A program made the translations under genes and the position numbers. This document shows, piece after piece, positions 2,546 to 4,557 of a DNA stretch of 64,000 bases. Origin of the DNA: Sporobolomyces roseus (Eukaryota; Basidiomycota; Microbotryomycetes; Sporidiobolales; Sporidiobolaceae); contig JADILM010000005.1 of NCBI GenBank assembly GCA_016617785.1, positions 744,001 through 808,000 of the forward strand, read 5' to 3'. Every line of letters begins with the position of its first letter. The first letter of the stretch is position 1. Under the pieces are notes generated by a model, which saw only the letters and a program-made list of their open reading frames with translations, ran no database searches and was not told the origin of the DNA.

Positions 2546-4557
2546 ATGACCACCGCATCTCACCAAGACCTCTTCAAGAGTTCCATCGCATCCCTTCGCG
2601 TTGCTGGAGCAACTTCCAACTTGAAACTCGCCAATTCGAATGAAATAGCTCCCATCTCTCCTCCTTCTTCGATCAAGAAAGCAGAATCGATCGCTTCTAC
2701 TGAAGATTCAGAAGTATCTGGTGGTAGGGAAGATTACGATGGAAACTACAAATTTGCTCCCATCAAAGAACACATCACTGCTCGCGCCATGTCTAGGAGG
2801 TACGGTGATGACTTGGTCAACACTGCAATCTCTGATATCGTTATCGGTACGTACACTGTTCGTCTTCATCTCGATCCGTCGTCGAAACTGAATTCTCTCG
2901 CTCTCAGTCGGATGCGGTTCTGCTGGACTCTCTTGCGCCTACACTATCGCATCTCGTCGTCCCGACTTGAAAGTAACGATCCTCGAAGCTGGTGTAGCTC
3001 CAGGAGGAGGTGCTTGGTTGGGAGGACAACTCATGAGTGCGATGGTTTGTCGCAAACCTTCAGACAAGTTCCTCACTGAATTGGGAGTACCTTTCGAAGA
3101 CGAAGGAGAGTTCGTACGTTTCCTCCACACGTCTCTCTCACTCTTTCCAATCAAAAGCTAAAGCAATAGAGATTAGGTCGTCGTCAAACATGCCGCTCTT
3201 TTCACTTCGACTATTTTGTCAAAAGTCCTCCAGGTGTGCTCGTCTTTACCATTGTCTCTCTCTTTCAGTCTAGTCTTCCTTCAACGAGACTTCCCCGCAA
3301 CATCTCCACTATACCTCCCCCTTCCCCCCTCTCCTTCGAGCTCATTCAAAGTCGATCTTCCTAGCCGAATCAAATAGCTATTGGAGAGTGAGACTTGAGC
3401 TTCGAAGGGAATCAAGCGAACACCGGTGGCTTTTCGAATCGTGTCGACGTGAAATCGCTTATTCGAGGTCCAACTCCTCGAATCCGCCGATTGCTAGATT
3501 ATTCTCACGTTTCGATACGATTCGATTTGTTCCTGAGAACTATGACTCTCGAACAATGAGACGAGTACGGTTTATCAGTTGATCCAGATAATGCTGGCGG
3601 AACTAGATTTGCTTGATTACTCCCCCCTCGTTCTCCCCTTGCTGATTCTTTCCTTCGTCTTTCCTTCGAAAGTTCCCCAATGTCAAGCGTGAGCTTGCTC
3701 TCTCTTTCTTCTTCATCGACTCAAAATGACTTAAAACAAGAAGACAGTCTACAACGCTACCGCTTGCGAGGATTTGATCACTCGTCCTGACCCTCTCGGA
3801 AACGGACTTCGAGTTTGCGGTGTCGTTTCAAACTGGTAAGCTCACTTTTTTCCCTTCTTATTTCGACTCTCACTCACAGATCGAACTCGAATAGGACCCT
3901 CGTCACTATGGCTCACGGCCTTCAGTCGTGTATGGACCCCCAAACGATCACCGCCCCCGTCGTCGCTTCTTTTGCTGGTCACGAGTGAGTCTTCCCCTTT
4001 TCTCCTGCTCTTCGAATGACCTCAGACTGACCCGCCTCCCTCCCTAGTGGTCCCTTCGGTGCTTTCTCTGTCAAGCGTCTCGTCGCTGCTGGTATCGTCG
4101 AGAAACTTGGTGACATGCGTTGCCTCGATATGAGGTCTTCCGAGGATTACATGTAAGTCGAGATCTTCTTCCAGTCTCATCAGATTATACTGAAGTGAAT
4201 CCTCTCGCATGCAGCGTTAACAACACTCGTGAGATCGTACCCGGATTGATCACGGGAGGAATGGAGCTCTCTGGTTCGTCTTCCTCTGTCTTCTCTTCTC
4301 CATACCTCTCTATTGACAATAGATTACGCCCTTCTTCAGAACTCGACGGTGCCAACCGTATGGGAGCTTCGTGAGTGACGACTCTTCCACCTCCACCCTT
4401 CGAATTGTCGCTGATCTCGAACCTCTCTCTCTCCAGATTCGGAGGAATGTTCGGATCTGGTATCAAAGCTGGACTTGAAGCTATCAAGCTCTTCGACTCG
4501 TACGATATCGTCGAAGGAGAAGTTATGGGTCCCGCTCAAATCAAACTCGCTGCTTGA
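2546..4557 (+). CDS. THI4: Thiamine thiazole synthase (THI4)
   Basis: Makes the thiazole half of thiamine from NAD and glycine, donating sulfur from its own cysteine. Ten exons: 2546-2846, 2908-3113, 3177-3233, 3673-3688, 3748-3835, 3895-3984, 4048-4152, 4215-4273, 4340-4370 and 4437-4557; they sum to 1074 nt (357 residues). The protein shows the Rossmann dinucleotide motif [15 protein letters not shown], then [15 protein letters not shown], and [13 protein letters not shown], which carries the cysteine equivalent to the sulfur donor of yeast Thi4 (active-site assignment from the family). The end GPAQIKLAA is typical. Exon 4 is only 16 nt and is preceded by a 439-nt intron holding a TPP aptamer, so thiamine probably controls splicing. 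The other introns are 59-66 nt. Confidence 0.97.
3494..3610 (+). ncRNA. TPP riboswitch aptamer inside THI4 intron 3
   Basis: The 3' half TTGATCCAGATAATGCTGGC (3579-3598) matches the TPP aptamer core. P5 is CCAG/CTGG closing loop ATAATG (3584-3597) and P4 is GTT/AAC (3578-3580 with 3601-3603). The conserved TGAGA is at 3557-3561. It directly follows a perfect P3, TTGTTC/GAACAA (3527-3532 with 3551-3556), and precedes the 3' strand of P2, ATTCG/CGAGT (3520-3524 with 3562-3566, one wobble). The order P2, P3, TGAGA, P2', P4/P5 is that of known TPP riboswitches. P1 is less clear: a CTAG-containing pairing near 3494-3500 and 3601-3606 is possible. A longer helix, AATCAAGCGAA (3410-3420) with TTTGCTTGATT (3608-3618), 11 bp with one wobble, encloses the whole element. 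Confidence 0.9.

Follow-up and report, generated by a model that had tools for sequence, protein, structure and literature searches.

A predicted long-P3 TPP aptamer within a coding intron of THI4 from Sporobolomyces roseus

In THI4 of Sporobolomyces roseus, a single intron much longer than its neighbors precedes a very small exon, which raises the question of whether this intron harbors a TPP riboswitch and which splicing event such an element would control. The gene is located in the window, i.e. the whole 64-kb stretch of DNA analyzed here (C5:744001-808000; the genome comprises 22.4 Mb in 15 contigs). The coding sequence at 2546-4557 of the plus strand consists of 10 exons encoding a thiamine thiazole synthase of 357 amino acids (Pfam Thi4, PF01946, E = 3.5e-95), and the exon solution reproduces the protein. 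Among the best 120 of 2634 relatives, six named Sporobolomyces proteins (P0001-P0004, P0006, and P0036) with 78-93% identity were found near the top. Solving the exons against the protein yielded introns of 61, 63, 439, 59, 59, 63, 62, 66, and 66 nt; hence, intron 3 (3234-3672, GTGTGC...CGAAAG) has 439 nt as compared to 59-66 nt for the other eight, and the corresponding intron of a paralogous THI4 gene likewise has 439 nt. Exon 4 (3673-3688) comprises 16 nt coding for FPNVK plus one base of the following codon. FPNVK or FPNVR is found at this position in 13 of 13 relatives examined and is preceded by KVLQ in 10 of the 13; exon 4 is therefore required. Gene, long intron, and small exon were thus found as claimed in an earlier note on this DNA, and the exon solution together with the relatives bears out its statement that the 16-nt exon is needed for the reading frame.

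The earlier note had proposed a TPP aptamer in intron 3 and had looked to the Rfam covariance model for a match. At the Rfam gathering threshold nothing was reported in the 64-kb window. This silence carries little weight because the same run also missed a tRNA gene with an apparent intron (1502-1587, minus strand), which was found with 46.5 bits at lax settings; this tRNA was also absent from the output of ARAGORN run with bacterial settings. With lax filters, the TPP model RF00059 matched positions 3535-3618 with 18.0 bits, so that the expected match fails at the Rfam cut-off of 54.3 bits. The corresponding E-value is 3.8 for a search of 4 kb with 4227 families and, by our arithmetic, about 9e-4 when TPP alone is queried over those 4 kb. 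Across the whole 22.4-Mb genome no RF00059 match above the cut-off was obtained; admitting E-values up to 10 gave three matches, namely in an amino-acid permease gene (31.6 bits, E = 0.0022), in intron 3 (18.0 bits), and at a site 14 kb away from it (17.1 bits). RF00059 is described as often failing on fungal aptamers with a P3 of more than about 60 nt (PMC11683625, in the part available), and the score below the cut-off obtained here fits this published limitation. THI4 intron 3 illustrates that fungal aptamers with a long P3 can escape a generic covariance model.

Pattern searches gave a sharper picture. Exact matches of the general TPP core pattern TGNTCNNNNTAATNNNNGCGNAA number three in the whole 22.4 Mb; each of the two THI4 copies has one in an intron, and the third lies in an intron of the amino-acid permease gene. 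When up to one mismatch was allowed, 16 matches were obtained as compared to 17 for a reversed control; since pattern and control are equal at this level, the 13 sites with one mismatch are probably due to chance. Exact matches of a 22-base core pattern were obtained in intron 3 and at the site 14 kb away and nowhere else, and with up to two mismatches this pattern gave six matches as compared to one for its reversed control. P4-P5 with UAAU in L5 and GCG in J4/5 is present at 3577-3604 as an exact match of the general pattern. The J3/2 motif CUGAGA is present at 3533-3538; it reads GAGAA, not GAGAU as named in the accessible text of PMC5882874.

The site 14 kb away proved to be a second THI4 gene in inverted orientation. 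Both genes belong to an inverted duplication of about 3.9 kb (window 2210-6126 and C5:730790-734680) with arms about 11.5 kb apart and 88.9% identical (BLAST), each arm comprising THI4 and part of the adjoining region. The two proteins differ at 3 of 357 residues. Between the genes, differences were counted at 22 of 198 four-fold sites and, with gaps scored as differences, in 130 of the 505 columns (26%) that make up the other eight introns. Intron 3, scored for gaps in the same way, is a mosaic. No difference occurs in the 16 columns at 3234-3249, followed by 26 of 85 at 3250-3332, 3 of 42 at 3333-3372, 3 of 15 at 3373-3387, 2 of 70 at 3388-3457, and 14 of 47 at 3458-3504; then 150 of 151 columns are identical at 3505-3655, and 9 of 21 differ at 3656-3672. 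When the columns of the other eight introns were permuted 2000 times at each of the block sizes 1, 10, 25, and 50, no permutation gave a stretch as long as the 154 columns with one mismatch at 3502-3655. When all non-coding columns of the duplication, including those of the neighboring gene, served as the pool, a length of 150 was attained by 0, 0, 2, and 9 of 2000 block permutations. The longest stretch of the duplication with at most one mismatch, 155 columns at window 5181-5335, belongs to this neighboring gene downstream of THI4; it may be coding on the minus strand. A fair similarity between the copies is also seen in intron 6 (5 of 63 columns different) and intron 9 (8 of 70), and gene conversion between the copies may therefore add to the identity; the sharp islands inside intron 3 argue for selection. 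Both full THI4 copies found in the genome bear the aptamer element. Elsewhere on the contig, a match to the Thi4 model barely above the cut-off (C5:644258-644380, minus strand; 26.5 versus 26.2 bits) covers 41 model positions only and probably represents another FAD-binding protein.

Furthermore, a metagenomic relative was found. A 65-amino-acid ORF translated over the aptamer of the paralog retrieved one metagenomic ORF, P0121, located on a contig of 5,891 bases, with an E-value of 0.059; an antisense ORF over the aptamer retrieved no relative by the same kind of search. P0121 contains the block LFLRTMTL corresponding to window 3527-3550 and a second block corresponding to 3564-3617, with 26 of 26 codons identical over both. 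Between the blocks it has 12 nt of different sequence instead of 13 nt, and after the second block it has 48 nt as in the window, largely different, followed by TCGAAAG and the 16-nt exon, which is readable as SKVPQRQA. Since the blocks lie in different frames in the window, they do not reflect a conserved protein. Although the E-value alone is weak, order, spacing, and exon make the match convincing to us, and P0121, differing from both THI4 copies, runs through the corresponding intron of what seems to be another species.

Core pattern, conservation in the paralog, and P0121 agree and support the earlier proposal that a coding-region intron of THI4 houses a TPP aptamer: judged from its sequence, intron 3 very probably contains a TPP-binding aptamer, which most likely acts via splicing. 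An alternative is that a degenerate, non-functional leftover of an aptamer resides in the intron, as the RF00059 score under the cut-off would allow. The element is conserved while most other introns have diverged, and it is kept in P0121, both of which make such a leftover highly improbable.

Because conserved blocks, fold, and P0121 point there, the aptamer probably extends over 209 nt from 3410 to 3618 and has a long P3, in place of the compact element at 3535-3618 to which RF00059 aligns. The fold of 3410-3618 has a z-score of -4.93, and none of 200 shuffled sequences was as stable; in its minimum free energy (MFE) structure, the greater part of P1 is formed together with the P3 arm, P4, P5, and a hairpin located in an insertion described below. 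P1 would be formed by AATCAAGCGAA (3410-3420) and TTTGCTTGATT (3608-3618), which pair over 11 bp in the fold; a helix of at least 11 bp was also obtained in 101 of 2000 shuffles. For P2, a pairing of ACCG (3422-3425) with CGGT (3568-3571) is proposed, which is absent from the unconstrained MFE structure of 3410-3618 and was imposed in the model; helices comparable to P1 plus P2 occurred in 88 of 2000 shuffles. The extended P3 arm at 3428-3532 contains, in the MFE structure, a helix of 3434-3452 with 3505-3525; its distal part (3458-3504) is the variable segment in which 14 of 47 columns differ between the paralogs, as compared to 2 of 70 and 1 of 151 in the flanks. It is followed by the J3/2 motif CTGAGA (3533-3538), which lies inside the LFLRTMTL block kept in P0121, and by an insertion of 29 nt (3539-3567). 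The latter could form a weak P3a-like hairpin (-3.9 kcal/mol), the 3' side of which bears most of a segment complementary to the 5' splice site; the counterpart in the paralog folds otherwise (-2.8 kcal/mol). P4, P5, L5 (TAAT), J5/4 (CG), and P4' occupy 3577-3604, were recognized by the lax RF00059 match as well as by the core pattern, are identical in the paralog, and are kept in P0121. Finally, CTGAT at 3642-3646, 27 nt before the 3' splice site, is a candidate branch site judging by its sequence.

The compact aptamer at 3535-3618 would use the TGAGA at 3557-3561 as its J3/2 motif, and in addition to the RF00059 alignment the position of this GAGA, 6 nt from P2', speaks for it. At this place, however, P0121 reads QVEA, the codons of which are incompatible with GAGA, whereas it retains the block that includes CTGAGA (3533-3538); moreover, a conserved block is found far upstream of 3535, at 3388-3457. 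The compact structure, which we regard as unlikely, was set aside on the evidence of P0121. For the order P2-P3-TGAGA-P4-P5 read earlier in this intron, this means that the 5' half is probably to be placed about 125 nt further upstream than in the compact Rfam reading.

How could this aptamer influence splicing? The GT sites of the region were scored with a donor matrix built from 12 donors, four of which represent our own reading of the permease gene. Among the 21 GT sites listed, the productive 5' splice site S1 (CAG|GTGTGC, 3234-3239) ranks first with 5.8 bits, and the candidate alternative 5' splice site S2 (AGA|GTGAGA, 3388-3393) ranks second with 3.7 bits, barely above the third-ranked GT at 3565 inside the aptamer (3.4 bits). 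S2 opens the 70-column block with two differences between the paralogs and adjoins P1 on its upstream side. Between S1 and S2 an in-frame TAG (3375-3377) is reached when S1 is unused; the paralog has no stop before S2, and its S2 product would be frameshifted with a stop in exon 5.

Position and conserved core of the aptamer, its conservation in the paralog and in P0121, and the second candidate donor preceded by a stop can be read from the sequence; the remaining steps of the mechanism are proposed as follows. At low TPP, intron 3 would be spliced from S1 (3234) to 3672, and THI4 would be made. At high TPP, the folded aptamer would reduce the use of S1, and S2 (3388) would be used or intron 3 retained; either outcome would lead to premature stops and lower THI4 production. 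If P1 is closed and the looped-out aptamer is left out of the count, the distance to the 3' splice site would, by our arithmetic, be about 76 nt for S2, close to the usual length of introns in this gene, and about 230 nt for S1. Taken as a whole, this reading, namely an intron 3 TPP aptamer with long P3 through which TPP lowers S1 use in favor of S2 or retention, appears likely to us. With it, control by TPP of the gene for thiazole synthesis would extend to a coding-region intron in a basidiomycete yeast.

The regulated event would then differ from that in the earlier note, which had assigned this role to inclusion or skipping of the 16-nt exon; the layout, with S2 at 3388 beside P1, the TAG at 3375-3377, and a complementarity between donor and aptamer, indicates 5' splice-site use instead. 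For exon skipping, TPP would have to block the acceptor at 3672 such that S1 is joined to the acceptor of intron 4 at 3747 and the frame is lost. The small size of the exon, its requirement for the frame, and the aptamer end located 54 nt before the 3' splice site are in line with such an event. However, the tract at 3656-3672 is variable between the paralogs (9 of 21 columns) and the S1 and S2 regions are conserved, and the fungal cases described in the available portions of PMC5882874 and PMC5997356 regulate donors or retention. Exon skipping is hence considered distinctly unlikely, and regulation at the donors is retained as the preferred reading.

A complementarity links S1 to the aptamer. 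Positions 3235-3246, i.e. intron positions +2 to +13, can pair with 3558-3569 over 12 bp including three G-U pairs (-18.2 kcal/mol), and the first 16 nt of intron 3 are identical in the paralog. This pairing was equaled by 12 of 3399 GT-starting 14-mers of the plus strand of the window, in 6 of 5000 shuffles, and in 13 of 2000 shuffles. None of the other eight donor segments paired with the aptamer more stably than -10.6 kcal/mol, four of these 14-mers being one base off the true donor. The permease intron lacks a comparable complementarity (-12.1 kcal/mol; 159 of 475 controls equal or better). The pairing is part of the MFE structure of the intron alone in both copies; with exon context, it occurred in 11% of the samples for the window and in 92% for the paralog. 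A complementarity of P4/P5 to a donor region was sought by eye and rejected; TCCGCC at 3483-3488 is not kept in the paralog. The S1-aptamer pairing takes up bases of P2' and of the P3a-like hairpin and is thus incompatible with the folded aptamer. Tentatively, we suggest that the 3' side of a hairpin in P3a position, together with P2', might pair over 12 bp with the intron's own 5' splice site and that ligand binding and tethering would be mutually exclusive.

Two opposite consequences of such a duplex can be imagined. It could hide the 5' splice site from U1, in which case TPP would free S1 and raise THI4 splicing; the duplex spans +2 to +13 and excludes P2 and the P3a-like hairpin, and in the model of the paralog S1 was indeed more accessible with the aptamer folded (0.36 versus 0.17). 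The sign of such a control, however, is contrary to feedback regulation of a biosynthetic gene, the window model showed unchanged S1 accessibility, and in NCU01977 of Neurospora pairing near the first donor promotes its use according to the text consulted of PMC5997356, all of which renders hiding of S1 very unlikely. Feedback logic speaks for a pairing that would tether S1 near the acceptor, as proposed for NCU01977.

Ensemble modeling with exon context gave mixed results and did not clearly show a switch. For the window, donor accessibility with and without the imposed aptamer was 0.32 and 0.32 for S1 and 0.43 and 0.42 for S2; for the paralog, the S1 values were those given above, and S2 was unchanged at 0.28. 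The path length to the 3' splice site, again with versus without the aptamer, was 62 versus 51 for S1 and 58 versus 64 for S2 in the window, and 33 versus 23 for S1 and 66 versus 71 for S2 in the paralog. These shifts agree with the prediction but are mostly inside their spread. Imposing the aptamer cost about 5 and 10 kcal/mol.

Location in a coding intron, the main point of the earlier note, is already published for fungi (Type III in PMC5882874; NCU01977 and DUR31 in PMC5997356, as far as these texts were available). Type III is a predicted coding-intron class for biosynthesis and transporter genes in the accessible text of PMC5882874. THI4 intron 3 shares with it an internal coding intron, two candidate donors upstream of the aptamer, and a downstream acceptor, and also an in-frame stop between the donors (the TAG at 3375 between 3234 and 3388, with S2 being predicted). 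It differs in length, 439 nt as compared to the 200-400 nt stated there, and possibly pairs at S1, whereas Type III as presented in that text invokes no long-range pairing; the paralog departs further from the Type III description in that its S2 product is out of frame with no stop before S2. With NCU01977 (Neurospora, Type II) and DUR31 (Candida), as far as they are covered in the part of PMC5997356 at hand, the intron shares its location within the coding sequence and a functional protein arising from the first donor only; in NCU01977 the aptamer pairs with a region near the first donor, comparable to the possible pairing in THI4, and for DUR31 thiamin leads to more unspliced RNA. Both are transporter genes according to the same text, unlike THI4. 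In Type II, P1' pairs with an element between the donors, near the first one (PMC5997356, same portion), whereas no such P1' pairing was seen in THI4; here, the segment with the best complementarity to S1 belongs to the P3a-like hairpin and P2', and the donor itself would be covered.

The element has the fungal long-P3 form of RF00059 in P4/P5, TAAT in L5, CG in J5/4, CTGAGA, P1, and the long P3; it deviates by its score of 18 bits and by the 29-nt insertion between CTGAGA and P2'. A long P3 is usual for fungal aptamers; that of intron 3, about 105 nt, compares with an average of about 150 nt in the portion of PMC11683625 available. P3a has so far not been found in eukaryotes, as stated in the available text of PMC8786325. 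If proven, the occurrence of a P3a-like insertion in a eukaryote would be novel, as would its pairing with the donor; to this we assign a rather small chance. P3a/P2'-donor pairing, if true, would represent a new expression platform, present in two paralogous THI4 genes. A literature search for Sporobolomyces and riboswitch returned no papers within one limited literature collection. Rhodotorula mucilaginosa is a red yeast, as is Sporobolomyces. Its THI4 switch is the sole one named for Basidiomycota, among medically relevant species, in the accessible portion of PMC11683625.

The permease gene carries the third exact core match. Its TPP aptamer lies approximately at C8:431805-431958 on the minus strand and gave the RF00059 E-value of 0.0022 in the genome-wide search; in our reading, it is located in a coding intron of 584 nt between DEAQL and ATFGYKQ, with a stop codon soon after the donor and a long P3 arm in the fold. 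Single ORFs of the permease matched no Pfam family; the joined fragment scored 27.9 bits (cut-off 24.6) and 27.2 bits (cut-off 27) with amino-acid permease models. For Basidiomycota, the available passages of PMC5882874 and PMC11683625 describe TPP switches of amino-acid transporter genes as widespread or as the most prevalent ones. With its THI4 duplicates and the permease element, this genome offers a natural comparison for the splicing model. Contig C12 contains none of the three exact TPP core matches; pieces of an NMT1-family gene (PF09084), possibly THI5, were observed at C12:133483-134092. The permease intron also contains, a short way downstream of its aptamer (L001, 1441-1467), a perfect inverted repeat of 13 bp with a 1-nt spacer, TTCCGTTCAAATC/GATTTGAACGGAA.
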